Positions 9,839 through 64,000 of a DNA stretch of 64,000 nt are shown here, piece after piece. How positions within the stretch are numbered: the first letter of the stretch is position 1; the number at the start of each line of letters is the position of its first letter. The notes beneath the pieces are model-generated. The model ran no database searches and was not told where the DNA came from. It saw nothing but the letters and a program-made list of their open reading frames with translations. The stretch comes from Antennarius striatus (lineage: Eukaryota > Chordata > Actinopteri > Lophiiformes > Antennariidae): positions 685,001 to 749,000 of the forward strand of contig NC_090783.1 in NCBI RefSeq assembly GCF_040054535.1. The letters are read 5' to 3'. A program made the position numbers and the translations under genes.

Positions 9839-12037
<2,199 letters not shown>

Positions 12038-26538: not shown

Positions 26539-26772
26539 GCCGCCAGGGGGGGCGGACCCCTCGGGTCCGTCCAATCGGCTGGACCGGAACACCAACTGAT
26601 GGGGCGGCACAGAAAACCCTGTCCATGCCCGGCCGGTGTGGCCCCCAGGTCCCCACAAAACTACATGGACTCATGGGGGGCAGATTCCACAACACGGGAG
26701 GGGGTGAGTGGGGGGGTCCTGCCTCTGATTTCATCAGCTGCCCCCCGCCGCTTGTGTATTTAGTCTGTTAGC

Positions 26773-28297
26773 TGCTGATGCTAACACCCTACATTAGACG
26801 CTGATGCTAACACCCTACATTAGATGCCGATGCTAACCTGATGCTAACACCCTGCATTAGATGCTGATGCTAACACCCTACATTAGATGCTGATGCTAAC
26901 CTGATGCTAACACCCTACATTAGACGCCGATGCTAACACCCTACATTAGACGCTGATGCTAACACCCTACATTAGATGCTGATGCTAACCTGATGCTAAC
27001 ACCCTACATTAGACGCCGATGCTAACACCCTACATTAGCTGCTGATGCTAACACCCTACATTAGACGCCGATGCTAACACCCTACATTAGACGCTGATGC
27101 TAACACCCTACATTACATGCTGATGCCAACACCCTACATTAGATGCTGATGCTAACACCCTGCATTAGATGATGATGCTAACAACCTACTTTAGATGCTG
27201 ATGCTAACACCCTACATTAGAGGCTGATGCTAACCTGATGCTAACATCCTGCATTAGATGCTGATGCTAACACCCTACATTAGATGCTGTTGCTAACACC
27301 CTGCATTAGATGCTGATGCTAACCTGATGCTAACACCCTATATTATATGCTGATGCTAACACCCTACATTCGACGCTGATGCTAACACCCTGTATTAGAT
27401 CCTGATTCTAACACCCTGCATTAGATGCTGATGCTAACCTGATGCTAACACCCTGTATTATATGCTGATGCTAACACCCTACATTCGACGCTGATGCTAA
27501 CACCCTGTATTAGATCCTGATGCTAACACCCTGCATTAGATGCTGATGCTAGCACCCTACATTAGACGCTCTTGCTAACACCCTACATTAGATGCTGATG
27601 TTAACACCCTACATTAGATGCTGATGCTAACCTGATGCCAACACCCTGCATTAGATGCTGATGCTAACACCCTGCATTAGATGCTGATGCTAACACCCTA
27701 CATTAGACGCTGTTGCTAACACCCTGCATTAGATGCTGATGCTAACCTGATGCTAACACCCTGTATTATATGCTGATGCTAACACCCTATATTCGACGCT
27801 GATGCTAACACCCTACATTAGATGCCGATGCTAACCTGATGCTAACACCCTGCATTAGATGCTGATGCTAGCACCCTACATTAGACGCTCTTGCTAACAC
27901 CCTGCATAAGATGCTGATGCTAACCTGATGCTAACACCCTGTATTAGATGCTAATGCTAACACCCTACATTAGATGCCTACGCTAACCTGATGCTAACAC
28001 CCTGCATTAGATGCTGATGCTAGCACCCTACATTAGACGCTCTTGCTAACACCCTGCATAAGATGCTGATGCTAACCTGATGCTAACACCCTATATTCGA
28101 CGATGATGCTAACACCCTGTATTAGATTATGATGCTAACACCCTACATTCGACGCTGATGCTAACACCCTACATTATATGCTGATGCTAACCTGATGCTA
28201 ACACCCTGCATTAGATGCTGATGAAAAACACCCCACATTAGCTGCTGTTGCTAACACCCTGCATTAGCTCCCGATGCTAACACCCTACATTAGATGC
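26773..28297. repeat. 26-bp minisatellite, about 1.5 kb
   Basis: Tandem copies of a unit like GATGCTAACACCCTACATTA plus GATGCT. Variants are truncated (TGATGCTAACC joined to the next unit) or carry TGCATTAG or TGTATTAG. Higher-order blocks recur, for example the series with TTCGACGCTGATG near 27365, 27485 and 27790. No open frame is maintained. Confidence 0.95.
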
Positions 28298-28869
28298 TAA
28301 GCTAGGTGTAGCCAGGTGGTGCTGGGATCAGGTGTCTCACCTGCTGGGTCTTTGGTCTCCATTGTGTCACGTCTAAAAGAGTCCCCCAGGAACCTGAGCC
28401 CACATTTAAAGGTTCTGGGTGATACCATGTGGTACTCAGTGTGGGGGTGTTGTCCTGCTGTTACCATGGTGATGATCTGTGATGTGTGCTCATTGTTGTG
28501 TTTGTGTCGTTCAAAGTGAAGGAAGTGAACACGCGTGTTGACAGGAGCACTCGGAACCCACCCATATGACGAACATGTGACCCCCCCCCAAACACACACC
28601 GTCCTGTGCAGGAACCCGATTGAAGCGCTGACACTTCAAACGGGTTCCTGAGCCGCTGGGAGGTCACCCCCAGGGCCCCCCGGCCTGAAGGGGGGGCGGG
28701 GGGTATCTGACATTGGTGAAAATCAAACAGATCCCAATTAAAGCAATTCTAACCAGCCAATAATCAGAGGAGGCTCAGCTGGAGCCCCGCCCCCCTGAGG
28801 AGCAGATGCTAACGGTTGCTAGCTAAACACTGACGGTCAGGAAGCTAACTGGTAACAACTGACCGGTAC

Positions 28870-44093: not shown

Positions 44094-44887
44094 TCAACTG
44101 ATGGGTTTGTCCTTGTGGGTCCTCATGTGCTGCCTAAGGTGTCCACCACGCCCGAACACTTTCCCACACAACGAACACCTGAAGGGTTTCTCTCCGGTGT
44201 GGATTTTCATGTGCAGCCAGAGATTTCCAGGCTGTCCAAACTCTTTACCGCACTGGGAACACTTGAAGGGTTTCTCTCCCGTGTGGGTTCTCATGTGTCT
44301 CACACAAGCCGATTTAAACTTAAAAGTCTTTTTACAAACTGAGCAGCTCAAACACTTGTCTTTTGGATGAAGTCTTTTGTGAGTTGTTTGGTAGGTCTTA
44401 TAACAAACTGAACAACCAAATGTCTGGACTCCACTGTGTTCCTGCAGGTGTTTCTTGTCACGAGAGCTGGAACCACCTTCAGGGGAGCAAACTAACAGAT
44501 TTCTAGGATGACATTCAGGCTCTGACTGGGGTCGACTGGTCTCCTGCGGGTCAGAACTGTTCCTGTCCTCTGGTTCACAGGAGTGCAGCACCAGCTCTTC
44601 AGTATCTGGTTGTGAATGTCCGTCTACAGTAAAGCGCTTGCCTGGTTGTGGTTCTCCACACTCTTCTCCATCAGTTTCTGTTTTTATCTGTTCAGTGTGG
44701 GGAAGCTTTGAGGACATCGGTTTCTCCTCGGAGACATCATCACTCGTCTGTTCATGATGCTCTCTGTTCTGGTTCAGCTCTTTCAGTTCCCCCTTAATAT
44801 GTGGAACCTCTGGTGGGTTGTTCTGGTCCAGCCTGGGCCTTGAATCCTGCTGCTCAGGGGGGACATCTTCCAGCAGCAGAAGGACAT
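44094..44887 (-). CDS. C2H2 zinc-finger protein, terminal exon only
   Basis: The exon starts after the acceptor TTGACCTCAG and is entered in phase 1 (G|AT = Asp), giving 263 further residues. A charged linker (PPEQQDSRPRLDQ, PHIKGELKEL) leads to four zinc-finger units. Fingers 2-4 are canonical (C-X2-C-X12-H-X3-H with TGEKPF linkers). Finger 1 (CSVCYKTYQTTHKRLH) has only 7 residues between the second Cys and first His instead of 12, so it probably does not fold. No matching first exon was found between this exon and 48.5 kb. It could be an alternative last exon of the gene starting at 52544, since phases match, or an orphaned duplicate. Likely nuclear DNA-binding protein; targets unknown. Confidence 0.7.
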
Positions 44888-45740
44888 CTGAGGTCAACAA
44901 AAAAGTACATTCATCACTATCCGGTTGTACGAGTATCAAGTATCAAATCATTTTGTCCCCGGATTCAATCGAAAACAAAATATTTTACTCAAACCAGATT
45001 CAATATCAGCTGAGAAGACATCTGGACTCACGACCAGGCAGAAAAGAATTACAACGCAATCAGCCTCACATTCGTTTCCCAGTATAATAACTGTAATGGC
45101 ACTTCATGAGATCTGAGTAAAGTGAGCATAGAAGGGGTATGACAACTGCCCGTGATTATCAGTAATTTTTATGATGCTAATTGAGGGTTTCTATGGAAAC
45201 ATTTGTGGCAAAGGCTCGTGAGATATCCTTGTTTAGAATTCTGACAAACCTACAAAAGAAAGTGGACCTTGAGTAGTAATACACCGCTTCAACTTACACA
45301 AAAATATCTGAACTATTTCAAAAACTTTAGAATACAACAGGAAATAATCATCTTACCTACAATCTATACCCTCATAGGTGAAATATTTGTGTAAGCCACG
45401 AGGTTGTGGTGTGGTGTGTCTGTGAGGATTGGTTAAGGCATGAACATCTGGTCCTACTCAACAGATCTGATCATCTGGTTATCAAGTGACTGTTGTGAAA
45501 GTGCACCTGGCAACAAGGTGACCGTAACAGGGCCACTGTGGGCTAGCTACCCGTGGCGGTGGGATCCAGCACAAGTTATGTATGGGTCCCACCCAAACTA
45601 AAGTTTGAAGAATAAAACACCCCCTGAGCCTGCGAGAGTGGGGGCGGAGATGACTCGTCGGCAGATAGCACAGTAATAAACACAAGAATGGAACAAACTA
45701 AAAGATTGATGATCAACAACCAGAGGATCTGATAGCTACA
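44888..45740. other. Non-coding stretch upstream of first zinc-finger exon
   Basis: No exon resembling the zinc-finger first exon at 52367-52544 was seen. Sequence is AT-rich and unrecognised. Confidence 0.5.
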
Positions 45741-48550: not shown

Positions 48551-50243
48551 TCAACACATCTCAACTCTTTTACCGCACAACGGACTGCAGGGCTCCTCCT
48601 TAGTGTGGATTCTCAAATGCTGGTTACGATGTTCGACACGTTGAAAGCCTTTACCACATGCTGAACACTCGAAGGGTTTCTCTCCTGTGTGGATCCTCAT
48701 GTGTCGTTTTAGGTGTCCACCACGTCCAAATCCTTTACCACACACTAAACAACTGAAGGGTTTCTCTCCTGAGTGGGTTTTCATGTGCAGCCAGAGATTT
48801 CCTTCGCGTCCAAACTCTTTACCGCAGACGGAACACCTGAAGGGTTTCTCTCCGGTGTGGGTTCTCACGTGCCTCTCGTAAGATGATTTGAATGGAAATG
48901 TCTTTTTACAAACGGAGCAGTTGAAACATTTGTCGTTCGAATGAAGTCTCATGTGAGCTCTTAAGGTGGGCTTGCGTTTGTATCTTTTGTCACAAACTGA
49001 ACAACTGAATGTTTTCTTTCCTGTCTGTACTCCACTGTAATTCTTTCCAGGATGAGATTTAGGTTCTTGGTTGTTCCTCAGCTGGTTGAAGTCTGACTGA
49101 GGTTCACTGGTCTCCTCCAGCTCTTCTGGTTCAGAGGAGCGTGACATCTGGTCTTCATCTGGTTGTAGATGTCCGTCTCTCTGAAAGTAACTGTTTGGTT
49201 CCAGTTCTGGCTGTCCGTCAGCCTCTGCTTTCATGTCTTCATCATGAAGCCGGGAGGACTGAGGTATCTCTTCATCATCTTCTTCACTCTTCACAGGGAC
49301 TGAAGATAATATTAACTCTGTGACATCCTCCTCCTCCTCCTCCTTCATCCCTTGCAGCTGCTCATCCTCTTGATTGGTCTGGACTTCCTCCGGTTCCTGT
49401 TTCATGTGTGGAGGTTCTGGTTGGACGTCCCGGTCCAGATTGGACCTTAAATCCTGCTGTTCAGGGTCAACTGCTTCTTCTGTCACCAACATCAGCTGGA
49501 CGTCTGAAAAACAAAAATCCAACAATTTAAAACATTTGGTAGTCATTGTTTAAATTGACCAATAATCAAATGTTCAAGCTGATGAATTTGTGTTTCAAAA
49601 ATTTTAAAAAATCTCATTTCTGTAAAGAATTTCAAAAAAGATTATCCTGAGTTTTGTTTTGCCAAAAACCGCAGATGTAAAACTTGGACGTTACCAAATT
49701 ATTGATGATATGGAACAAAAAAAAAAGTGTGGCAACAAAACAAAGCTGAATAAATTTACAAGATTAAACACAGAAATATTGATGAATGTCCCTTCACACC
49801 CCCTCCCCACTGTTAAGAAACCTCTGCGCCATCTGTGACCTCACCCTCTATTCCATCCACCCATCCGACAGATCACCAACACCTTTGTACCATTGTCCGC
49901 CTTTGTTCTATCCTCTCTCAACCCGCTGCTGAAACTGTAGTCTACGCACTTACTACTTTAGACTTCCTGCGACAGCTTCCTGTCTGCTCTTCCCTCCGGC
50001 ACCTCACCCACCCCCGCTCCAGAACCCACAGCACCCCGGTCCTCCACAGCTCTACTGGCTCCCCGTACAACGACACATCAAAAAAAAAAAAATCCAACAA
50101 AAAACATCAAAAAGCTTTCGACCAAACTTCTGCCATCAAATAGAAGCTTCAGAGTCCGCCAGGCTGGACCAGACCGGAGGAAGAACTCTCTAGTCCCTCA
50201 GTTCAACTGTTACATCAGTTTGGCTCTCAGTAGGCCTCAGGGC

Positions 50244-50282
<39 letters not shown>

Positions 50283-52544
50283 CCCAATCCAGCTGGATTG
50301 GGTTTAAATGTTCTGTTGCTAGTTTTGTGTGGAACTCTGGACGTCATGGGATGCAACTCTTCAGATCACGGACAAAGTCGATGTGATGGAACACGACCCA
50401 CCAGGAAATCAACACAGATAGGTCGGTGCTGTTAGTTCACAATCCAACAACTGTTGGTAGTTAATAATAATATTATTACCATTAAAGTCAGTAAACACTA
50501 TTTTTTTTTCTCTGTGGTCAATGTTTCAGGACCTGTGGTTCAACAAAAACAGTTAGCCTGATAAGTACCCTGATAGTAGTCTTGATAGTTATCCCGATAA
50601 TTAGCCTGATAGTTATCCTGACAGTAATCCTGACAGTTATCCTGACACTAATCCTGACACTAATCCCTACAGCAATCCCTACAGTAGTCCCTACAGCAAT
50701 CCCTACAGTAATCCCTACAGCAATCCCTACAGCAGTCCCTACAGCAGTCCCTACAGCAATCCCTACAGTAATCCCTACAGCAATCCCTACAGCAGTCCCT
50801 ACAGCAGTCCCTACAGTAATCCCTACAGTAATCCCTACAGTAGTCCCTACAGTAATCCCTACAGTAATCCCTACAGTAGTCCCTACAGTAGTCCCTACAG
50901 TAGTCCCTACAGTAATCCCTACAGCAATCCCTACAGCAATCCCTACAGCAGTCCCTACAGCAGTCCCTACAGTAATCCCTACAGTAATCCCTACAGTAGT
51001 CCCTACAGCAGTCCCTACAGTAATCCCTACAGTAATCCCTACAGCAGTCCCTACAGCAGTCCCTACAGCAATCCCTACAGTAATCCCTACAGCAATCCCT
51101 ACAGCAGTCCCTCCAGTAATCCCTACAGTAGTCCCTACAGTAATCCCTACAGTAGTCCCTACAGCAATCCCTACAGCAATCCCTACAGCAATCCCTACAG
51201 CAATCCCTACAGTAATCCCTACAGCAATCCCTACAGTAATCCCTACAGCAGTCCCTACAGCAATCCCTACAGCAGTCCCTACAGCAATCCCTACAGCAAT
51301 CCCTACAGCTATCCCTACAGTAATCCCTACAGTAATCCCTACAGTAGTCCCTACAGTAATCCCTACAGTAATCCCTACAGTAGTCCCTACAGTAATCCCT
51401 ACAGTAATCCCTACAGTAGTCCCTACAGTAATCCCTACAGTAATCCATACAGTAGTCCCTACAGTAGTCCCTACAGTAATCCCTACAGTAATCCCTACAG
51501 TAGTCCCTACAGTAATCCCTACAGTAACCCCTACAGTAGTCCCTACAGTAACCCCTACAGTAATCCCTACAGTAACCCCTACAGTAGTCCCTACAGTAAT
51601 CCCTACAGTAATCCCTACAGTAATCCCTACAGTAGTCCCTACAGTAATCCCTACAGTAATCCCTACAGTAGTCCCTACAGTAATCCCTACAGTAATCCCT
51701 ACAGTAGTCCCTACAGTAATCCCTACAGTAACCCCTACAGTAGTCCCTACAGTAATCCCTACAGTAATCCCTACAGTAATCCCTACAGTAATCCCTACAG
51801 TAGTCCCTACAGTAGTCCCTACAGTAATCCCTACAGTAATCCCTACAGTAGTCCCTACAGTAGTCCCTACAGTAATCCCTACAGTAATCCCTACAGTAGT
51901 CCCTACAGTAATCCCTACAGTAGTCCCTACAGTAATCCCTACAGTAATCCCTACAGTAGTCCCTACAGTAATCCCTACAGTAGTCCCTACAGTAATCCCT
52001 ACAGTAATCCCTACAGTAACCCCTACAGTAATCCCTACAGTAGTCCCTACAGTAATCCCTACAGTAATCCCTACAGTAATCCATACAGTAATCCCTACAG
52101 TAATCCCTACAGTAATCCCTACAGTAATCCCTACAGTAGTCCCTACAGTAATCCCTACAGTAATCCCTACAGTAATCCCTACAGTAGTCCCTACAGTAAT
52201 CCCTACAGTAATCCCTACAGTAGTCCCTACAGTAATCCCTACAGTAATCCCTACAGTAATCCCTACAGTAATCCCTACAGTAATCCCTACAGTAATCCCT
52301 ACAGTAATCCCTACAGTCAGTACCGCTGTGGGTTCCATCCCGCACACAGAACCAGACTGAACCCACCTGCTGTCTGGAGGTGGACCTGAGGACCGAAGAC
52401 ACCGTCCAGGAGCTTCTGTCGTCCACAAAGCTGCTCCTGGTTCTCGTGGTTTGCTAACGTTCTTTCAAACTGCTCCATGATGTCTTCAGCAGCAGCAGTT
52501 AGTCGCTGCAGGACAAAAGCTCTCAGCGTTTGGACGTCACACAT
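48551..52544 (-). CDS. C2H2 zinc-finger protein, 2 coding exons, minisatellite in intron
   Basis: Exon 1 (52544-52367) and exon 2 (49503-48551) join in phase 1 to give 376 residues. Exon 1 encodes MCDVQTLRAFVLQRLTAAAE and EQFERT, the N-terminal helical module typical of large fish zinc-finger families. Exon 2 begins DVQLMLV, has an acidic linker (PEPPHMKQEPEE; a run of five Glu), then five canonical C2H2 fingers, from CSVCDKRYKRKPTLRAHMRLH-type to a last one ending HLRIH, with TGEKPF linkers. A nuclear DNA-binding regulator is inferred. The 2.86-kb intron contains an L2-like LINE fragment, a (GT)n tract and the 12-bp minisatellite array. Exon 2 is a close paralog of 56912-57975. Confidence 0.85.
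49840..50120 (+). mobile_element. Degenerate L2-like LINE fragment
   Basis: The stretch with CTCTCTCAACCCGCTGCTGA and GACTTCCTGCGACAGC follows the reverse-transcriptase C-terminal region common in fish L2/CR1-type elements, but with indels. It lies in the zinc-finger gene intron. Family assignment from memory of the consensus style. Confidence 0.45.
50248..50279. repeat. (GT)n microsatellite
   Basis: About 32 bases of GT in the zinc-finger gene intron, followed by an AACCCAATCC palindrome-like pair. Confidence 0.9.
50560..52318. repeat. 12-bp minisatellite array 1 (TAATCC-rich)
   Basis: About 138 units of 12 bp, consensus TA(A/G)TCCCTACAG, inside intron 1 of the zinc-finger gene. The left edge (50560-50660) holds diverged units such as TAATCCTGACAG. 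From about 50660 to 51310 many units read CAATCC or CAGTCC; beyond that nearly all read TAATCC or TAGTCC, with a few TAACCC and two TAATCCATACAG. Because 12 is a multiple of 3, several frames stay open on both strands (Val-Gly-Ile-Thr, Cys-Arg-Asp-Tyr, Pro-Thr-Val-Ile), which is not coding evidence. Confidence 0.98.
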
Positions 52545-53480
52545 TTTGACTCGTTCACAGCACAACTTTTCCTCCAGACACGATCCTTTACAATCTGTTC
52601 GCTGATGTGCTCCGAGTCCACAAGATGGTTTCCGGCTAGCAGGCTAAGCTAGCTGCGTTAGCTCGTCGGGGCGGAAGCAGAAAGTTTCCTTGTTGAGCGT
52701 CTTCCGGTCCAGAGAACAGAACAGAGTCTCTTCTGACAGCTGTTCACACAGAAAGACGCCAGAAAGCCTCTTTGGGATTTCTCCAAGCTTCACCGGCTGG
52801 CGAGGCCTGACAACTTCTACCGCTGCTGGGGCTGTTAGCAATAGCCGAGCGCTGCTTCTTCTTCTCCGTTTTCCTGCTCGCTCTGCTTCCGGTTTGGCGC
52901 CACCGTCTGGACAGACACTGAATCACAACGACTTGGAGAACTGGAGGAGTTGTGGATTCCATCCTCTTTGACATGAACCATCATCTGAACATAAAGACAC
53001 CCTGATGGACTCGTCTACATTCATAAATATATCCGTCATCAGGATTCAGAACCTCCTCAGACCCACAATAGTTTCAGGGCTGTCAGTCTCTGCTAAATAA
53101 TTACTACTAATTTACTTTACTCTTCTAATTGTCAGGAAAATGTTTAAACCCTCTTTATATTATTCCTCTTATTTCTGTCTGATGGAACTTGATCATTAGA
53201 ACCCATGAACTTGTTCATCTTCTTGGACATCAGACGATAGTCTTCACGCGGTTTTCTATTCATTTACTTTATTTAGCTCCAATCCCGTGGGGGAGAAGAA
53301 CAGATGGACGCAGCTGAGGATGAAACATAAAAACTTTGTTCAAACAGACTTCTGCAGCATCTCATGGGGGTTCCTCCTCGTTTCATCCTGTCTGACATTT
53401 CACAGTAAATATTAAGCAGCTGTTTGAGAAAGAAGACAATTAAGACCAACAGACTTTTTCTCAGCCATAAAACAGGGCGT
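52545..53480. other. Zinc-finger gene promoter region and flank
   Basis: Immediately upstream of exon 1 the sequence is moderately GC-rich, with TTCCGG/CTTCCGGT ETS-like sites near 52630, 52700 and 52887, as expected of a broadly active promoter. Further out it is AT-rich and featureless. Confidence 0.4.
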
Positions 53481-55140
53481 GGCCCAGCACCTCTGCCTCA
53501 AACAGAGGGGTGGGCCTACATCAAAGTATAGGAAGGACATGACACAGGTAATGTCAGATGGCTCCGCCCAAAGGCACTTTGTTTCCTTAATTTCTTGTAC
53601 ATTTTAATTTTGAATTTTTAAAGGTACGTGTTTTTGGACAAAAATGACAACAAAAACAGCTCATAATAGTTTTCCGTGACAACTTTTTCAATTTTATTTT
53701 AAATCGAGTAAATCTGCATATGCATTACAAACAGTTCAAATGAAGAATATTCATTCTTATACATACACCTATATTACATAAGAACTCAAGAAATCAAGAG
53801 CTGACGTAGCTGTTTTCCATGGTTTCCTTGGTAATAGCCAACATTCCTTTGTTCTTCCACCAATAGCCGTGGTCTATTTTACCTAAAGAAAGTAGTGCAT
53901 CCCTGGGATGCACTCCAAAAGAAATATGTGCATCCCTACATGACGTTTACGCATCCCAAAAGTAACAACAGAATATACGGTAGAAGCGTATACAAGGATT
54001 GAGTTATGCCAATAGTACAATATGAAAATTAAAGAAACCGAATTTTAATTATTTTATTAACTACGTCATAACTGTTTAAAACAAAAAAAAGTAAAATTAC
54101 ATGTTATTTTTATCAAAATGTTAAAGACCAGTTGTCATTTAAAAAAAGTTTCAATAATAAAGATGTATTTTTTTTCACCTTTGCTTTTCAATCAAGTTTT
54201 CTTTGCCTTTACTTCATTTAGCGTCTTCTGTAGACGCTGCACCGAGCTGACAGAACCTTCACACACATTTCAGTAATATCTGTAGTAATATTTGTCTGGT
54301 TTTCTTCATTACCTTTTGATTGTTTTTTATTCAAGAACATTCTCATTGTCACTTGACTCTTCTCCAACTTTTGCATCTTTTTCGGAAGCATAGTGATAAT
54401 CAATCGACGTTTATTGGTATAGCGCTTAATCACGCCAGTAGATATTTCAAAGCGTTTTAACAGACAGACAAACCCAACAGTAAGCTTATGATTGTTCTGG
54501 AGGATCTGACCCTTTGCTCTCACTGCAGCGTGTACAACGAGCAGAAGTCGTGTTGTTTAGAGTCTACTGACACATCGCTCATCTGGGATGAAGTTTGAGG
54601 AAACAGTCTGCAGCCTCCACAGGGGGGGATCAGACAGGCCTATGGAGGTCATGTTTGTTCCTGATAGTTCTCTCCCCACTACTTAACATTCTGGTGGAAT
54701 ACTGTCACGACCCATCTGGGGGAAAGGGAAACAACATAAAATTATCCAGATCGATTAACGGGGAAAGTGATTTATTAAACATTAAGAATTTAAGAATTGA
54801 TTAACAGAGATTGATAAGAAAAAAGAATAAAGAAAAAGGGCCAGTGGGAGCTGGGAAACTCAAAGTAACCTAAAAAATGTGTCAGTATAAATTTAAATGT
54901 CTACACAAACAGACAATAGCTCACTAGGTTTTGAACTAAGTAGTTTTTGAACCATCCCACAATATTTTAAGCAAATAAGGCTCTAAACTAACTAGGTTTT
55001 AAACTACTTTTAGAACTAAGTAACTAACCCACTAGGTTTTGAACAAATTAGGTTCTAAACTAACTGGGTTTTGAACTAACTACGTTTTTGAATTATTACT
55101 TAACAACAACAGTGAATGATGTTATTTCATTATTGTTTAA
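53481..55140. other. Intergenic stretch with repeat relics
   Basis: No gene recognised. Positions 53875-53915 hold an inverted copy of a 40-bp repeat also at 59822-59864. A fragment near 54400-54455 (TTTATTGGTATAGCGCTT) resembles a common fish repeat tail. Imperfect tandem AACTAACTAGGTTTT-type words occupy about 54915-55095. Confidence 0.45.
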
Positions 55141-55235
55141 GTTGTGTTTGCACTTTTACACTAATCCTGCTTTATGTGCTTTCATTTGCCCCTTGGGGCC
55201 AAATAAAGTTTTTTTTAAAATTTGAATTGAATAGA
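55141..55235 (+). mobile_element. LINE 3'-tail-like repeat
   Basis: Plus-strand copy of the repeat nested at 47221-47300: TTGCACTTTTACAC, AATCCTGCTTTATGTG, then TTGCCCCTTGGGG and AATAAAG followed by T-rich sequence. Confidence 0.55.
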
Positions 55236-55589
55236 AACAAAGCTCTTCACGACACTTAACTTCAACAAAAGACACCACTTATGCACCCAATAAAACAGCA
55301 ATCAGTAACATGCATCAAAGGAACACACAAAAGCTGTACAAATAGTCTCTAAATCAGAAAAGCCAACCCAGAGGAGAGCTGCCACACATTTACAAGCCGC
55401 CCAGAAACTGACAAAGAGCGGAGGGACCCCTGACGCTCCAATCAGGCTAACTGGCTGCAGCATAGGAGGTGTGGTCTGGAGTCCAGCGAATGACCAATCG
55501 GAGCTGAGCAGCAGCAGGAGGATCAATGCCCACTGCAGACCAATAGTCAGATAGATGCTCAGTAAACCAGAGGCTCAGTTTGTGGAATC

Positions 55590-55800
55590 CTACGTGCAGC
55601 CGGGGGCCAGAAAAAGTCCAGTTTGGGACCAAAGGATTTCATCTCTGCTTTTTTGCGGATGATGTCCTGTTATTCTCATCAAGTCACTACCTTCAGTGTG
55701 TACTGGGTTGGTTTGTAGCTGTGTGACGTGAGTGTGATGAAGATCAGCACCTCCAATTCCAAGGCCATTGGATTTGAAGGTGCAGGACAATGTCTGATAA
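55590..55800 (+). mobile_element. Reverse-transcriptase fragment of a non-LTR element
   Basis: Plus strand 55652-55681 encodes FADDVLLFSS, the catalytic F-A-D-D box of LINE polymerases. It is preceded by a degenerate VQFGTKGFHLC block and followed by broken frames with ISTSNSK. Only a short piece survives. Confidence 0.6.
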
Positions 55801-56911
55801 TGTGAGTGATTCATAATTCCAAAAACTCTGAGTCACTTGACGGATCAGTTCACATTCATTACTCTTTTTCCCTCAGACGGACATACCCCAGAGTAACAAA
55901 CAACTTGTTCGCAATCCCTCGAAACACGATCCAGTTGGATACCAAAGCCATCAAATCTTTATTCCCCATCCATAACTGTCATCTGAAAACGTTTCCATGG
56001 TTGCCAAGATGCACGCATTCCTGAATATGTGACAGAGTTTGACCTGCGCCTGCAATACCTCAGCTTTGTTCCGGAGGGATCAGATATTAGACAAAAAGAT
56101 GTAGGGATGGGGTATACATGACAAGGGCCAATCCCTGACCTTCAAATTGTGTGGCCCCTGTCCTCCCTCTCTTCCTGGCTCCTCGGTTGTGCCGTGACCT
56201 TCTGTCAGAAACAGTCATGGGACTATGATAGTCTTAAAATAATCCAGATTTGGCGGGTTAAAATCTACCGGAGAATCGTAGGATTTCTCCAGATGGAGAA
56301 GGAACTTTTCTGTACTGGATCTTTGTGGGGAGGTCCAACGATGGGAGAAGTCCTCTATACTCCGGACCAGGTGGCCACAACAGTAGCAGAGTGACGAGAT
56401 CCATATCCAGTGAATCCAACTGAATAAAGCGTTCCTGTCTTTGTCACCACCTCTGGCACCTGGTTTGTTGTGGCAGCTTGTGCATCGACATACTTCAAAC
56501 ACGCTAACGTTTTGTTTGCAATTTGGGGATCGACGTTTACCCAGCTTTACTTTGGGGGAAGTCGTTGTTGCATCATGGACCAACTTGTTTGTGTGTCTTT
56601 GTGTGAAGCATGGATGAGCCACGCCCTAGGTAGGAACTCAGAGCCAGAGCAGAAGAGAGTCATTGTTCAGGAGAGGGACACACACACTGCGGAAAAAAAA
56701 CCAGTTTAATTCTGGAAAGTCCACAAATTTGCATTTATTTTTAGGGAGACTGGTGATCAGTTTGGCCTTCAATCCAGATGATTGATCAGGGAATCACATC
56801 TATGAACAGTTTACACTAAAACAAACAGACATCTTCATTTAAATCCATTTCTGTTGGTAACACATGTTTGCTCAAATGAACAACCAGAGTTAAGTTTTTA
56901 TTACAAACACT

Positions 56912-57975
56912 TTAACCAATGGGCGTCTCCCCACTGTGGGTTCTCATATGTGTCTTTAGAGTTCCACTCTGTCTATATCCTATACCGCACACTGAACAAA
57001 TAAAGGGTTTGTCTCCAGTGTGGATTACTGTGTGCTTCCTGAGACTACCACGATGTGTGAACCCTTTCCCACACACTGAGCAAATGAAGGGTTTCTCTCC
57101 TGTGTGGACTCTCCTGTGCTCTGTTAGGTCTGAGCCACGTCTAAACCCTTTATTGCACACTAAACACTTGAAGGGTTTCTGTCCTGTATGGATACTCATG
57201 TGTTCTCTTAGATGTTGAGCTTGCCTGAATTCTTTATTGCAGACTGAACAATTAAAGGGTTTCTCTCCTGTGTGGATTCTTGTGTGCACCCAGAGATCTC
57301 GACTTTCTCTAAATCCTTTGCCACAGAACGAACAGCTGAAGGGCTTCTCACCTGTGTGGAGCATCATGTGGCGCTGACGATCTGATCTGAATCGAAAGGT
57401 TAGTTCACAAAATGAACAACTGTATTTCTTTCCTGTCTGAACTCCACTTTGTTCCCGCAGAAGTTTCCCGTCACCAGAGCAGGAACCACCTTCAGAGAAG
57501 CTAACTGGTGGATTTCCAGGAGCACAATCAGCTTCTTGGTTGTGCCTAAACTGGTTGAAGTCTGACTGAGGCTCAATAGTCTCCGCTGGGTCACAATTGT
57601 CACCATCCTCTGGTTCAGAGGAGTGTGACATCTGGTCTTCATCTGGTTCTAGGCCTTCGTAGTCATAGTAATAAGCCTCTGTTTTCATTTTTTCACCATA
57701 AAGCCTTGAGGACTGAGGTATCTCTTCATCATCTTCTTCACTTTTCACAGGGACTGAAGAGAATATTAACTCTGGGACATCCTCCTCCTCCTCCTCCTCT
57801 TCCTCTTCCTCCTCCTCCTTCATCCCTTGCAGCTGATCAATCTGATTGGTCTGGAATTCCTCTGGTTCCTCTTTGATGTGTGGAGGTTCTGGAGGGACGT
57901 CCTGATCCAGATTGGACCTTAAATCCTGCTGCTCAGGGTCAACCTCTTGTTTTGTCACCAACATCAGTTGGACAT
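56912..57975 (-). CDS. C2H2 zinc-finger protein, terminal exon, six fingers
   Basis: The exon starts after the acceptor TTTTTCAG, is entered in phase 1 (G|AT) and gives 353 further residues: DVQLMLVTKQEVDPEQQD, an acidic linker with twelve consecutive Glu, then six canonical C2H2 fingers with TGEKPF-type linkers. The N-terminal 100 residues are nearly the same as those of the exon at 48551-49503 (SSVPVKSEEDDEEIPQSSRL shared exactly), so the two are recent paralogs. The fingers have diverged, which suggests different DNA targets. The first exon was not found up to 64000. By analogy with its paralog it should lie beyond the 12-bp array, outside the window. Confidence 0.85.
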
Positions 57976-58039
57976 CTGAAAAACAAAAAAAATTCATGTT
58001 CAGACAAATTTTTAATGGATAAATATTTTGAATTTAATT

Positions 58040-58600
58040 TCTGTAAAGAGTTTCAAAAAGATTGCGGCACACAACACCCAGACCAGACTAAGACCTGACA
58101 TCATCTTGGTGTCAGAGGCCACAAAACAACTCATCTTGTTGGAACCGACGGTTCCCTGGGAGGAGAGAAAGGATAAACCACAAGAAAGAAAGAGGGAGAA
58201 ATGTCAGGATCTGGTGGAGGATTGTCAGAGGAGCAATGGAGGACCAGGTTTACGCCAGTAGAGGTGGACAGTCAGGGATTTTCCAGCCACTCCCTGAGCA
58301 AAGCATACAGTACCCTGAGCATAAAGGGCGCCAATTGAAGACGAACCATAAGAAAAAGATGGAAGCAGCAGGAAAAGCCTCCAGATGGCTGTGGTTGAGG
58401 AGCAGTGGGATCAGTAGAAAGTCACTTGGACACAGGCCAGGAACTGATCAACCTCGGTCCAGTTGCCTGGAGGAGAACCCGAAACATAGCTGTTGCAAGA
58501 CCCGAAACACCCAATGATCCCAGGAAGCAACACTGACGTTGGGTCCAAGGTTGTGCTTTAGTAGATGTATTGTTAACTTAATTAGTTAATTGTTAATGAG
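58040..58600 (+). mobile_element. Non-LTR retrotransposon 3' end with endonuclease remnant
   Basis: Plus strand encodes PDIILVSEATKQLILLEPTV followed by PWEERK (about 58097-58170), the restriction-like endonuclease block of R2/NeSL-type elements. After a deletion comes AAGKASRWLWLRSSG (about 58364-58410) and a tail with CCCGAAACACCCAATGATCC. It interrupts the intron of the zinc-finger gene soon after a stretch still homologous to the paralogous intron. Confidence 0.65.
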
Positions 58601-59821
58601 GAGCAGACCACAAAGAGGGTGGTTGACATCTAGAAAGTCAGAGGACGATTGGAGAGACGGCAACCCAGGGTGGGGAGGGTTTACTGCCCAAACCAAAATC
58701 AGACAGACAACAAAATAAAAATACAAAGGCAACCCATAATGCCCAAAGTCTCCTAGTGTTGCCTACAACCACTGCCAACATCTCACATGCCCGATTAAGC
58801 CCCCGAAAGACAGCAACCCACGGAACATCCAAAGCCAGCAAGCTCCAGTCATAACAACTGGATGGGTGCCTTCGGCTCTAACGAGGATCCAGTGGCCACA
58901 ATGTGCAGAGAGCTGAATGGAGTCAGTTCGATGACGATGTAGACTATATCCTGAAAGTGACAGCATAAGGGGATGTGGACCATTGGTTGAAAAGAATGAT
59001 CACCCTCACAGTGAACATTGCAGCTGATCAATATGGATTTGGCCTTTGCTCCAAACCAAAGAGCATGGAAAATCAGGGTATCAAGAGCAGGGCTTCAGCT
59101 GCTCAACAGGCAGTACAAGAAAGCAGCAGATCTGGACTCTGTGTAGGGTAAAGTTCCACAGGAGAAGGCGGAATGAGAGTCAGGAAAAGGGTGTGTTTCT
59201 TGGCCAATTCTTGCAAGTTGATCAACCATTTTCTTGGTCAAAAGCAGACTGGCTGCCTCATATGCTCTAAACAGGATGTTAAAGGTTCCATATTATGCTT
59301 TTTTTAATTCACATCATTCAGCTCCCACATGTCCAACTACAGTAATCTTGCCCCAAACTGATCCGTGGTCCTTGATATCTTTGATTGAATGTTGATAAAA
59401 TCACTTCCCTCCCAAACACTCTGTTTAATGGGGCGTAGCTCTAAGCTCCCTATCTTCACACCCCTCTGAGCTGCCTCTATCAACACATGCATTAGCTTTG
59501 CTCTATGGTCTTACTCACACTGGCCTTCCCCCTCGTCTTTCTATCTTATCCGGTTCCTGAGTGTGCACAAGTTGAAATTTGACCTTGACCTAGTTTTCTA
59601 AAGGTCAAGCCCATCATCTCATTTTCATCCCCTTTGCTGCCTGAGTAACGTGCTTTTTGTTTCATCTATCTGCAACAGTTGCGAAGATATTAGGCCAGAG
59701 CACTAGCTTTGATCTTTGACCTAAGCAAGAAGGTCAGGGTAAAATTTTGAATTCAGGGGTGTCGCAGGATGTTGCAGTCCCTGACTGCATTGGTTCTTGT
59801 TACTTCTTGCACAATTTTTTT
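58601..59821. other. Probable retroelement debris
   Basis: No intact frame. Adjacent to two copies of the same 3' end, so probably more of that family, but I could not place specific domains. Confidence 0.35.
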
Positions 59822-59863
59822 GAAGCGCATCCCAGGGGTGCACTACTTTCTTGAGGTAAAATG

Positions 59864-59865
<2 letters not shown>

Positions 59866-59948
<83 letters not shown>
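59866..59948. repeat. (GATA)n microsatellite with LINE-type tail
   Basis: About 20 GATA units followed by CTTTAATAATCCCGG, the same tail as the LINE relic near 30338. The inverted repeat shared with 53875-53915 lies directly to its left. Confidence 0.95.
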
Positions 59949-59949
<1 letters not shown>

Positions 59950-60229
59950 CTTTAATAATCCCGGAGGAAATTGCATTGAACTCTGGCATTTATGTATTTA
60001 TTGTGAGCAGATGATATACGGAATTTTCCCCAGGGTTGATAAAGTATCTACCTATCCATCCATGTTGAAAACAGTGGAGTCTGGGCTCCCTGGAAGATCC
60101 TAGGCCTCCATCTACCAGCACGGAAGTCTTCCAAGTATCCTCTGGCTTCTGCTCATACATGAGGTCACCATGACCGTGGTGGAAGGCTTGGAGCAAAGGG
60201 TAAGCAGCTACCGACGCAGATGTTTGTGG

Positions 60230-60465
60230 TTACCACCCAGCCTCAGCAGCATTGGCCTGTGCAGGATGCCTCCAGATGGCTCTGGTTGAAAGGGAGGGGG
60301 GGCAGTGGGTGCAGTAGCAAGCCACCTGGACCCAGGCCAAGAACTGATCAGCCTCGTCACCTGAGGAAGGCGTCTGTGGCAAGACCCAAAACACCCTAAG
60401 ATCCGAGGAAGCAACGCTGATGGTGTGTCACAGGTTGTGCATCAGTGGATGTCTTGTTAACTTTC
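60230..60465 (+). mobile_element. Second copy of non-LTR 3' end
   Basis: Homologous to 58360-58570: GCCTCCAGATGGCT, CCAGGCCA(A)GAACTGATCA, CAAGACCCAAAACACCC, then GAGGAAGCAAC and a shared TTGTGC..AGT.GATGT tail. Shows two insertions, or one duplicated, in the same intron. Confidence 0.65.
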
Positions 60466-61390
60466 CTTTATTCATTGTGTTGATTCACCTTCAAGTAACT
60501 AAACAGAAACTACATGATGGTCAGTCCTTCTTTTTTACTGTTGTCTTGTTAACTATTAGCCCCCTAAACCGTAAACCTATTTACATCACAAAGAAAACTA
60601 AAACGTGATGGACACTAGTTTATGTTTCATAAACTGAAACGTTTGAACACTTCTGGGGCGCGACACGGCTGTGACACGATTCTGTCATCCTGTTTCTGTT
60701 TTGTTAGCTTGATTTGTGAAACGTTGGTTGTTTGTGGACCGTATGGACGCGTGGGAGACTGGTGTGTTGTTATATGGACTGGATGGACGTGTCTTTATTG
60801 TGTTCTACAGAAAGCTGGTTACGTCTTTGGTACCAGACAGACATCAGCTGATCTAGAGGCACCTAAATGAGGGATCTGCACCTAAATGATCGGTGGTGTC
60901 GTCAGAACACCGTGAACGGGGGGATCTGTTCCTGACTTTCAGACCCTTCTATTTGACCAGAAGGTTTGGATGCATCCTGGTTTTATTGTGTATCAGTGAC
61001 AAAGCGACGCCAGCTACTGAAGCAGACTGGGTTCACATCCCCCAGCTGTTGTTCTCCGAGACAGGAAACATTGGAAACTGGATCCAACAGCCGGGATTTA
61101 ATCAACTTGTTAAAGGACAAACAAGGAAGAGCAATCTGTGGAATTAACAGATTTGTTTAGGTCACGAACCCCAACAGCCAACTGAGATCATCATGTAGTT
61201 CATCTGGTAACAGCTTAATATATTAAAGATATGAGTTTGGTCATCTGACAGCAAAGAAAAAGTTAACTTTTTGTTCGGGCTGAGTGGGAGGAGTTTGTCA
61301 GGACTTCATTAAAGATCAACAGTAACAACAGAACACACAGACTAAGGAAATACAAACCCACCCAAACAATAAGACATACAAACAGGTATA
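60466..61390. other. Unassigned intronic or intergenic sequence
   Basis: AT-rich, no domain recognised in any frame; lies between the retroelement copies and the second minisatellite. Confidence 0.45.
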
Positions 61391-61399
61391 TAACTATCA

Positions 61400-64000
61400 G
61401 GTATCCTGAGAGTAATCCCGTTAGTAATCCTGATAGTTATCCTGATGGTAATCCTGACAGTAATCCCTACAATAGTCCCTACAGTAATCCCTACAGTAGT
61501 CCCTACAGTAATCCCTACAGTAATCCCGACAGTAATCCCTACAGTAATCCCTACAGTAACCCCTACAGTACTCCCTACAGTAGTCCCTACAGTAATCCCT
61601 ACAGTAGTCCCTACAGTAATCCCTACAGTAATCCCTACAGTAACCCCTACAGTAATCCCTACAGTAACCCCTACAGTAATCCCTACAGTAACCCCTACAG
61701 TAGTCCCTACAGTAGTCCCTACAGTAGTCCCTACAGTAATCCCTACAGTAATCCCTACAGTAACCCCTACAGTAGTCCCGACAGTAGTCCCTACAGTAGT
61801 CCCTACAGTAATCCCTACAGTAATCCCTACAGTAATCCCTACAGTAACCCCTACAGTAGTCCCTACAGTAATCCCTACAGTAATCCCTACAGTAGTCCCT
61901 ACAGTAGTCCCTACAGTAATCCCGACAGTAGTGCCGACAGTAGTCCCTACAGTAATCCCTACAGTAGTCCCTACAGTAATCCCTACAGTAATCCCTACAG
62001 TAGTCCCTACAGTAATCCATACAGTAGTCCCTACAGTAATCCATACAGTAATCCCTACAGTAGTCCATACAGTAATCCCTACAGTAATCCCTACAGTAGT
62101 CCCTACAGTAATTCATACAGTAGTCCCTACAGTAATCCCTACAGTAGTCCCTACAGTAATCCCTACAGTAGTCCCTACAGTAATCCATACAGTAGTCCCT
62201 ACAGTAATCCCTACAGTAGTCCCTACAGTAATCCCTACAGTAGTCCCTACAGTAGTCCCTACAGTAATCCATACAGTAGTCCCTACAGTAGTCCCTACAG
62301 TAATCCATACAGTAGTCCCTACAGTAATCCCTACAGTAACCCCTACAGTAATCCCTACAGTAATCCCTACAGTAACCCCTACAGTAGTCCCGACAGTAGT
62401 CCCTACAGTAGTCCCTACAGTAATCCCTACAGTAATCCCTACAGTAATCCCTACAGTAACCCCTACAGTAGTCCCGACAGTAGTCCCTACAGTAATCCCT
62501 ACAGTAATCCCTACAGTAGTCCCTACAGTAATCCCTACAGTAGTCCCTACAGTAACCCCTACAGTAATCCCTACAGTAATCCCTACAGTAGTCCCTACAG
62601 TAATCCCTACAGTAGTCCCTACAGTAGTCCCTACAGTAATCCATACAGTAGTCCCTACAGTAGTCCCTACAGTAATCCATACAGTAGTCCCTACAGTAAC
62701 CCCTACAGTAATCCCTACAGTAACCCCCTACAGTAATACCTACAGTAGTCCCTACAGTAATCCCTACAGTAGTCCCTACAGTAGTCCCTACAGTAATCCA
62801 TACAGTAGTCCCTACAGTAACCCCTACAGTAGTCCCTACAGTAACCCCTACAGTAATCCCTACAGTAATCCCTACAGTAGTCCCTACAGTAGTCCCTACA
62901 GTAGTCCCTACAGTAATCCATACAGTAGTCCCTACAGTAACCCCTACAGTAATCCATACAGTAACCCCTACAGTAATCCATACAGTAGTCCCTACAATAA
63001 TCCCTACAGTAATCCCTACAGTAATCCATACAGTAGTCCCTACAGTAGTCCCTACAGTAGTCCCTACAGTAATCCCTACAGTAACCCCTACAGTAATCCC
63101 TACAGTAATCCCTACAGTAACCCCTACAGTAGTCCCTACAGTAATCCCTACAGTAGTCCCTACAGTAATCCCTACAGTAGTCCCTACAGTAATCCCTACA
63201 GTAATCCCTACAATAATCCCTACAGTAATCCCTACAGTAATCCCTACAGTAATCCCTACAGTAGTCCCTACAGTAACCCCTACAGTAATCCCTACAGTAA
63301 TCCCTACAGTAATCCCTACAGTAATCCCTACAGTAGTCCCTACAGTAATCCCTACAGTAGCCCCTACAGTAGTCCCTACAGTAATCCATACAGTAGTCCC
63401 TACAGTAGTCCCTACAGTAATCCATACAGTAGTCCCTACAGTAACCCCTACAGTAATCCCTACAGTAACCCCTACAGTAATCCCTACAGTAGTCCCTACA
63501 GTAATCCCTACAGTAGTCCCTACAGTAGTCCCTACAGTAGTCCCTACAGTAATCCATACAGTAGTCCCTACAGTAACCCCTACAGTAGTCCCTACAGTAA
63601 CCCCTACAGTAATCCCTACAGTAATCCCTACAGTAGTCCCTACAGTAATCCCTACAGTAGTCCCTACAGTAGTCCCTACAGTAGTCCCTACAGTAGTCCC
63701 TACAGTAATCCCTACAGTAATCCCTACAGTAACCCCTACAGTAATCCATACAGTAGTCCCTACAATAATCCCTACAGTAATCCCTACAGTAATCCCTACA
63801 GTAATCCATACAGTAGTCCCTACAGTAATCCCTACAGTAGTCCCTACAGTAGTCCCTACAGTAATCCCTACAGTAACCCCTACAGTAATCCCTACAGTAA
63901 CCCCTACAGTAATCCCTACAGTAATCCCTACAGTAATCCCTACAGTAACCCCTACAGTAGTCCCTACAGTAATCCCTACAGTAGTCCCTACAGTAATCCC
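61400..64000. repeat. 12-bp minisatellite array 2, runs off window end
   Basis: At least 212 units with the same 12-bp consensus as array 1. The left edge again starts with diverged TAATCCTGATAG/TAATCCTGACAG units. Frequent variants are TAACCCCTACAG and TAATCCATACAG; CCCGACAG variants and rare AATAATCC units are specific to this array. An extra C near 62726 shifts phase. The CAATCC/CAGTCC variants of array 1 are essentially absent. Confidence 0.98.

Follow-up and report, generated by a model that had tools for sequence, protein, structure and literature searches.

A 12-bp minisatellite with a probably incidental TAATCC word in the first introns of six clustered zinc-finger genes of Antennarius striatus

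Do long arrays of a homeodomain-type binding word, lying in the same stretch of DNA as an exon of an OTX gene, represent a regulatory target of OTX-like proteins, or is the word simply a property of the repeat unit that carries it? This question is raised by a 64,000-nucleotide stretch of DNA from Antennarius striatus (hereafter the window), for which a preliminary description proposed that two minisatellite arrays rich in TAATCC could titrate OTX/PITX factors or act as homotypic enhancers of zinc-finger genes. The reading of the word itself is sound, given that TAATCC is the consensus of the K50-class homeodomain proteins Bicoid, OTX2, and CRX in three reports (PMC6177261, PMC6258689, PMC10645426). 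The window was also said to encode OTX1. It does contain the last exon of an OTX gene (9839..10558, minus strand; right-hand limit set by eye from the acceptor), with a partial homeodomain with K50 and a TF_Otx match (Pfam, E 8.6e-28), an assignment that holds at the level of OTX.

Taking a match of at least 8/12 to CAGTAATCCCTA as a unit, array 1 (50550..52313, minus strand) comprises 144 units and the part of array 2 within the window (61398..64000, minus strand) 216, and the total of 360 bears out the earlier figure of about 350. The region 50560..64000 previously assigned to the repeat does hold both arrays, but about 52320-61390 between them is array-free; one zinc-finger gene has its exon 1 there and the neighbouring one its finger exon. 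TRF places the arrays at 50621-52317 (141.4 copies) and 61403-64000 (216.4 copies), and both extend leftward beyond these limits as degenerate units; the right end of array 1 is sharp and its left end degenerate. The complete array 2 (C8:746398-751438) has 420 units and reaches 2.4 kb past the window end. Within the window, TAATCC is found in 73/144 units of array 1 and 101/216 of array 2, accompanied by TAGTCC (32 and 81 units, respectively), TAACCC (5 and 27), CAATCC (17 and 0), and CAGTCC (12 and 0). As described before, TAATCC is followed by C (TAATCCC, 69 and 83) or A (TAATCCA, 2 and 17). The arrays show few substitution types, which are not independent events. All 29 CAGC variants of array 1 fall between inner units 2 and 54 of 138 (numbering from 0), a clustering equally tight in 0 of 100,000 random placements and as expected from local copying. 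The 24- and 36-bp periods reported by TRF are unsupported as higher-order repeats, the top lags and longest repeated blocks of the window arrays not exceeding those of shuffles; in the complete array 2, duplicated blocks can be made out by eye. Three of the first 10 degenerate left-end units of array 1 and three of the first five of array 2 hold TAATCC, which lends a late origin of the word in the history of the arrays no clear support. Elsewhere in the window, the best candidate relic of the repeat (22/36) only equals one shuffled sequence, and a search of the whole window against Rfam at gathering scores gave no match.

Both arrays reside in the first introns of C2H2 zinc-finger genes. In gene B, exon 1 (52367..52544, minus strand) begins MCDVQTLRAFVLQRL and ends at the donor CAG/GTGGGT, 53 nt from array 1, which makes up 62% of the 2863-bp intron 1 (49504..52366, minus strand). 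Joining exon 1 to exon 2 (48551..49503, minus strand), which encodes five fingers, yields a CDS of 376 aa with a single terminal stop. Array 2 lies in intron 1 of gene C, whose exon 2 (56912..57975, minus strand) encodes six fingers and whose exon 1 is beyond the window at C8:751492-751669. For a third finger exon (gene A; 44094..44896, minus strand, right-hand limit approximate), neither an exon 1 of this type nor an array was found alongside.

We searched the 548-Mb genome for the exact 24-mer (TAATCCCTACAG)x2. All 267 reported matches (150 forward and 117 reverse) are in the first introns of six zinc-finger genes and are fully assigned to six arrays (32+63+4+51 and 56+61), spanning C8:583 kb to 932 kb in a cluster of about 350 kb on one contig; such counts may be lower bounds, and diverged arrays without the exact word would escape the search. 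The same 24-mer had no match in viral and prokaryote collections, which leaves a foreign origin of the repeat unsupported. Read in the sense of the gene, all six arrays are (CTGTAGGGATTA)n, the host gene being on the minus strand in four cases and on the plus strand in two. In every case the array directly adjoins the junction and donor of one and the same type of exon 1. Their lengths are 147 units in B (including low-match edge units; 144 under the rule above), 420 in C, 12 (144 bp) in D, 175 in E, 173 in G, and at least 146 in H, which was counted to the first large interruption and has further blocks reaching C8:622303. They are thus direct tandem repeats within the range of minisatellites (units of about 10-60 bp, array lengths of hundreds of bp or more), with a 12-bp unit in 146 to 420 copies, D being short. 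The exon 1 adjoining array D is a 179-bp fragment with a flank match of 176/179. In B, C, E, G, and H, the reading frame closes when exon 1 is joined to exon 2. Two further exon-1 copies, D4 and F5, carry no array; the frame of D4 closes only within a fused exon-1 fragment, and no finger exon was found for F5. Each of the five genes whose frame closes and whose flank is complete to the junction has an array, a near-definitional observation, as the junction is the array edge.

The arrays are one minisatellite family in intron 1 of C2H2 zinc-finger genes, near the exon-1 donor, in six places that each adjoin a copy of a shared exon-1 cassette. We consider it very probable that the two arrays of the window are explained as members of this family, with an incidental TAATCC. 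Given the identical junction and orientation, the minisatellite most likely arose once and was copied along with the cassette. Its length and variant make-up would shift by slippage, unequal exchange, or conversion, as suggested by arrays of 147, 175, and 420 units whose 621-bp flanks are identical, a comparison between genes of one assembly. TAATCC would be an incidental property of the unit, which K50 proteins, judging from their published specificity, probably bind in vitro; expression of the genes would make the arrays part of the intron RNA. Vertebrate intronic minisatellites (VNTRs) consist of head-to-tail units with few substitution types, one degenerate end, and variable copy length. 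The present arrays resemble them in their 12-bp head-to-tail units, few substitution types, degenerate end, and very unequal lengths, and differ in lying at an equal distance from the splice donor in six clustered genes, each time adjoining an exon 1 that is nearly identical. A narrow literature search found no published report of the array or the cassette.

The cassette itself (621 bp; 52314..52934, minus strand) comprises the junction, donor, exon 1, 5'UTR, and the upstream side, a putative promoter by its position. It is identical in B, C, and E, with one difference in G and four in H, the latter all in its outermost five bases, giving 0-5 differences per 621 bp in the 10 pairs of these five genes, against an exon-2 (finger) dS of 0.25-0.54 in the same pairs. 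Between B and C, dS is 0.535 over the whole exon 2 and 0.22 over the N-terminal part (2/27 fourfold sites different), so that divergence is greater in the finger part. Certain pairs have a low N-terminal value, such as B/E (0.056 over the first 100 codons). Further into the introns, no match longer than 140 bp was found in 14/15 pairs of the six genes, the exception being C/D, and in B, C, E, G, and H the cassette stops at the array. The array marks the edge of a homogenised exon-1 cassette. It might also be the joint at which recombination or conversion swaps cassettes while the finger exons stay different, a role that would be added to the arrays and is compatible with the preferred reading. 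The contrast between cassette and finger exon, the unmatched distal introns, and the common stopping point all speak for such a joint, which we regard as possible though rather unlikely. However, D4 (582/583 matching) and F5 (534/534) show the same homogeneity although they lack an array, so that an array is not needed, and the longest run of units shared by any two of arrays B, C, D, and E stays within the maximum of 200 shuffles, except in B/E (13 vs 12). Moreover, recent small segmental duplications with variable ends could have copied the cassette instead. In clustered gene families with homogenised segments, such as the protocadherins, one segment is likewise homogeneous and another divergent among neighbouring paralogues; here, by contrast, the homogeneous part is the first exon with its upstream side, the divergent part is the finger exon, and a minisatellite lies between. 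It is a speculative extension that the cluster combines a shared, continually homogenised promoter/exon-1 cassette with divergent finger exons, the kilobase minisatellite being the exchange joint that gives new finger exons the same promoter, N-terminus, and intronic array under one control. If the joint model is true, the K50 and UAGGGA words of the array come along to new finger exons.

The array could instead act in the intron RNA, where UAGGGA and a G triplet recur about every 12 nt after the 5' splice site and might recruit hnRNP A1/F/H, influencing the splicing of exon 1. All six arrays are in the sense orientation, with UAGGGA counts of 130 in B, beginning 53 nt from the donor, 315 in C, 10 in D, 161 in E, 159 in G, and 131 in H, and the part of the unit spanning UAGGG is among the least variable. 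UAGGGA/U is the hnRNP A1 SELEX motif and near the top iCLIP motif (PMC4932749), and in INSR intron 10 hnRNP F and A1 are reported to bind repeated AGGGA, with an effect on splicing (PMC3223206). In that element as in the present arrays, AGGGA recurs close to the 5' end of an intron; the INSR element is short and comes with splicing data, whereas these are kilobase arrays. Against such a function, the orientation is inherited with the cassette, so that the six arrays may be one event, and D4 and F5 share the donor without an array. Folding of the intron RNA is barely above shuffles (z -1.53), and no quadruplex appears in the predicted fold or with loops up to 7, leaving quadruplexes or strong RNA structure unsupported. 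We therefore judge a splicing role improbable. The GC skew of the sense strand is positive (0.51 and 0.47 in the window arrays), from which R-loop formation at the arrays is possible.

We regard it as more improbable still that the arrays serve the zinc-finger genes as homotypic K50 enhancers or titrate OTX/PITX as decoys. In vitro binding by OTX/PITX proteins is likely, considering the K50 consensus and a reporter of four tandem CTGGGATTACA copies, which has GGGATTAC in common with the window repeat and is activated by the K50 factor LEUTX (PMC6258689). TAATCCC sites on Alu repeats are also reported to act in reporters (PMC1513395, PMC6258689); Alu-borne T(G/T)TAATCCC is a listed OTX2 site, and PITX2 is reported to act through Alu sites (PMC1513395). 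Furthermore, consensus sites occur in 586 of the 1073 units counted in six arrays, and an enhancer could plausibly sit in intron 1, close behind the gene start. The chance of finding TAATCC on one strand or the other is 0.016 for a 12-mer shuffled at constant composition (0.006 for a uniform random 12-mer); since the unit holds the word once, its enrichment is uninformative on function. Repeat units frequently match one factor core or another: with a set of 61 such cores, 33% of shuffled units match at least one, as do 6/8 other window repeats, whose units of 15-40 bp are longer and so likelier to match. The 40-kb nearness of the OTX exon also means little, because the contig carries 4/6 arrays beyond the window. 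Outside the arrays, TAATCC occurs 45 times in 59,632 bases, both strands together; scaled from this window's background to 548 Mb, the genome is expected to hold about 414,000. The 586 counted array sites are about 0.14% of these, a small share relative to the genome that speaks against the proposed titration.

Nor is the word better preserved than its spacer. Among inner units, TAATCC is intact in 72/138 in B, 202/413 in C, 98/173 in E, 106/172 in G, and 95/144 in H, against 135/138, 372/413, 171/173, 170/172, and 139/144, respectively, for CCCTAC; in array D the two tie at 9/11. The mean non-consensus fractions of the six core and the other six positions are 0.094/0.006 (B), 0.086/0.020 (C), 0.073/0.005 (E), 0.064/0.017 (G), and 0.058/0.013 (H), and are reversed in D (0.030 vs 0.045; 11 inner units); the core is thus more variable in 5/6 arrays. 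TAATCC is not everywhere the least intact of the 12 six-letter words, four being less intact in C. Within-array variation is no clean test of selection under concerted evolution, and an array-level function could tolerate half the sites being weak. The OTX-type word in the repeat is genuine and without sign of preservation. The enhancer proposal thus retains a real K50 word and a position in intron 1, and is weakened by the variable core, by lengths from 12 to 420 units, and by the two array-free exon-1 copies, though neither D4 nor F5 is a clean array-free gene. The arrangement also argues against it: GGATTA is absent from both window arrays, no reverse-oriented TAATCC occurs in any of the six, and the steps between the uniformly oriented window sites are multiples of 12 bp with one exception of 49 bp. 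Like Bicoid or OTX/CRX enhancers and Alu-borne TAATCCC, the arrays offer many exact TAATCC/TAATCCC near gene starts; unlike those enhancers, they are periodic, of single orientation, and unpreserved in the core. An OTX function is not favoured.

That the open frames through the arrays encode a repetitive protein is almost certainly wrong: a plus-strand Tyr-Ser-Asn-Pro frame, traced by eye, runs open through array 1 for 594 aa, and third codon positions account for several of the variable sites, but a one-base insertion at about 62730 breaks the frame in array 2, on which ground coding was rejected, the most variable position would be non-synonymous, and the array lies between the splice sites of gene B, whose frame closes without it. 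A Pfam match of the array translation to PF22861 (E 1.6e-11) probably reflects low complexity.

In summary, a locus-specific minisatellite in six zinc-finger first introns very probably accounts for the arrays, indicating that what underlies the OTX-site reading is a word within an intron repeat and not a preserved regulatory array. The locus offers a clean natural case of paralogues with an all-but-identical first exon and upstream side, divergent fingers, and a boundary minisatellite of unequal length. This gene set would allow testing of minisatellite-guided gene conversion in zinc-finger clusters, as well as of the relation between intron-1 array length and expression.

Sequence analysis revealed that two arrays of a 12-bp repeat are located at 50621-52317 (array 1) and 61403-64000 (array 2), as delimited by Tandem Repeats Finder. 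A unit-by-unit walk yielded 144 and 216 units matching CAGTAATCCCTA at 8/12 or more positions, of which 73 and 101, respectively, contain TAATCC, the core site of K50 homeodomain proteins. The two arrays of about 350 units, many with TAATCC, noticed in the preliminary description are thus borne out. An OTX gene had also been reported within the window, and an exon harboring the K50 part of an OTX homeodomain was indeed found on the minus strand at 9839-10558 (Pfam TF_Otx, E 8.6e-28). It resembles OTX1 and may belong to either OTX1 or OTX2. The TAATCC sites of each array all point the same way and are spaced by multiples of 12 bp, with a single exception of 49 bp.

Exon structures were predicted from the DNA by splice sites and reading frames. 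The zinc-finger gene B, on the minus strand, has a short exon 1 (MCDVQTLRAFVLQRLTAAAEDIMEQFERTL..., 3' end CAG/GTGGGT) to the right of array 1 and a C2H2 finger exon at 48551-49503, which starts at the acceptor TTTTTCAG. The joined exons form a closed 376-aa frame, placing array 1 within intron 1; it occupies 62% of this intron and starts 53 nt from the donor. The 29 CAGC variant units of array 1 are all confined to its half distal to exon 1 (50670-51320). Similarly, array 2 is within intron 1 of the paralogous gene C and extends to C8:751438 (C8, contig NC_090783.1); the finger exon of this gene (56912-57975) and its exon 1 beyond the window (C8:751492-751669) also join in a closed frame. For a third finger exon, at 44094-44896, no exon 1 of the gene B type was found. 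The window further contains a minisatellite spanning 1.5 kb (26768-28298), whose 26-bp units show groupings of 37, 89 and 115 bp, many other simple arrays, and two dispersed repeat pairs, one inverted (47226-47416/55037-55214, 75% identical) and one at 58377-58579/60268-60463 (74% identical), both perhaps old mobile elements.

We searched the assembly (548,383,777 bp, 42 contigs) for the exact 24-mer (TAATCCCTACAG)x2, a search blind to diverged arrays without that word, and obtained at least 150 forward and at least 117 reverse matches. The stretches read were C8:685001-952000, which takes in the window (C8:685001-749000), and two 9.5-kb pieces (C8 578.5-588 kb and 615.5-625 kb), both located by a 36-mer search. 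Arrays B, C, D and E, named after their genes, account for all 150 listed forward matches (32, 63, 4 and 51), and the stretches of arrays G and H contain 56 and 61 copies, a sum that agrees with the 117 listed reverse matches. All six arrays adjoin the same CAGTCAGTACCGC junction and donor. Four genes are on the minus and two on the plus strand, and each array turns with its gene; therefore, the RNA always reads (CUGUAGGGAUUA)n. Genes B, C, E, G and H have closed frames with a full exon 1. At array D (C8:781033-782018 and 780886-781208), the finger exon of the preceding gene, D4, is joined in frame with a 179-bp exon-1 fragment (98.3%), on whose other side lie array D and then the gene D finger exon. 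The D4 frame is closed at 387 aa only within this fragment, and D4 is not a clean array-free gene; the arrangement might represent a fusion of two zinc-finger genes. Just outside array E, on its left side, an inverted repeat with arms around GCGTCATCATGGAAGGG was seen by eye (~C8:929740-929800).

Adjoining the array toward exon 1 is a 621-bp cassette (array junction, donor, exon 1, 5'UTR and upstream side), in which any two of B, C, E, G and H (ten pairs) have 0-5 differences; the four between H and B are all within its outermost five bases. For the same pairs, dS is 0.25-0.54 over the whole finger exon and lower in the N-terminal first 100 codons (e.g., B/E 0.056, B/C 0.213). Beyond the array, 14 of the 15 intron pairs of the six genes have no match or at most 140 bp, C/D alone aligning at length (99% over 1389 bp). 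Given the near-identical 621 bp and the divergent far introns, the array borders an exon-1 cassette that has been homogenised and inside which, by position, the promoter presumably lies. Cassette copies without an array, in D4 (582/583) and at F5 (534/534, with exon 1, C8:818386-818919), are equally homogeneous, and thus the array is dispensable for cassette homogeneity. The nearest finger run found for F5 (10 fingers, C8:817062-817818) has the reverse orientation. Upstream, the cassette copies end at different points, from ~573 bp in F5 through 616 in D4 and H and 621 in C and G to 862 common to B and E, which would fit conversion tracts or small duplications. Alternatively, the similar cassettes, read from the assembled sequence, may reflect an assembly fault, although flanks unlike on both sides disfavour simple duplicated haplotypes. 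A mobile element with fixed ends is an improbable source, given the unequal upstream ends. Arrays beside identical cassettes differ in size (147, 175 and 420 units) and variants, indicating that either array turnover is faster than flank mutation or copying ended at the array edge.

The preliminary description also proposed that the arrays act as homotypic enhancers of the zinc-finger genes or titrate OTX-type factors. Published work describes a preference of K50 proteins for TAATCC (PMC6177261, PMC6258689, PMC10645426) and activation by LEUTX of a TAATCC reporter of four tandem CTGGGATTACA (PMC6258689). If individual TAATCC sites were important, the six positions of the word would be expected to be the least variable. 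As a group they are the most variable in five of the six arrays, with mean non-consensus at core/other positions of 0.094/0.006 (B), 0.086/0.020 (C), 0.073/0.005 (E), 0.064/0.017 (G) and 0.058/0.013 (H); array D (12 units) is reversed (0.030/0.045). Scoring all 12 six-letter words of the unit in inner units only, CCCTAC is intact in 135/138 (B), 372/413 (C), 171/173 (E), 170/172 (G) and 139/144 (H), and TAATCC in 72/138, 202/413, 98/173, 106/172 and 95/144, respectively; in array D each is intact in 9/11. TAATCC is not the least intact word in every array, since in array C, for example, ATCCCT (170) and AATCCC (172) fall below it. This variability speaks against the enhancer proposal; binding of K50 proteins to the arrays would be compatible with all of these results. 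The degenerate left-end units, perhaps older than the rest, carry TAATCC in three of the first ten units of array 1 and three of the first five of array 2, and do not indicate a recent origin of the word.

Titration is not supported by the site numbers. The 59,632 bases of the window that are not array contain 45 TAATCC/GGATTA words, which scales by hand to an expected genome total of ~414,000; the at least 586 TAATCC counted in the six arrays, a lower bound because array H was walked in part, amount to ~0.14% of it. A shuffled unit contains TAATCC on either strand with a probability of 0.016, and the relevant chance figure is higher because any of many factor cores would attract notice. Against a set of 61 factor cores, about one-third of the shuffled units have one or more matches, as do six of the eight other repeats of the window, whose units are longer.

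In summary, the arrays are best read as a minisatellite of the ordinary intronic kind, belonging to a single zinc-finger family, in which both the K50 word and, on the array RNA, the UAGGGA word, reported as an hnRNP A1 motif (PMC4932749), are incidental. It is the cassette with the array at its border, rather than the OTX sites, that merits further attention.
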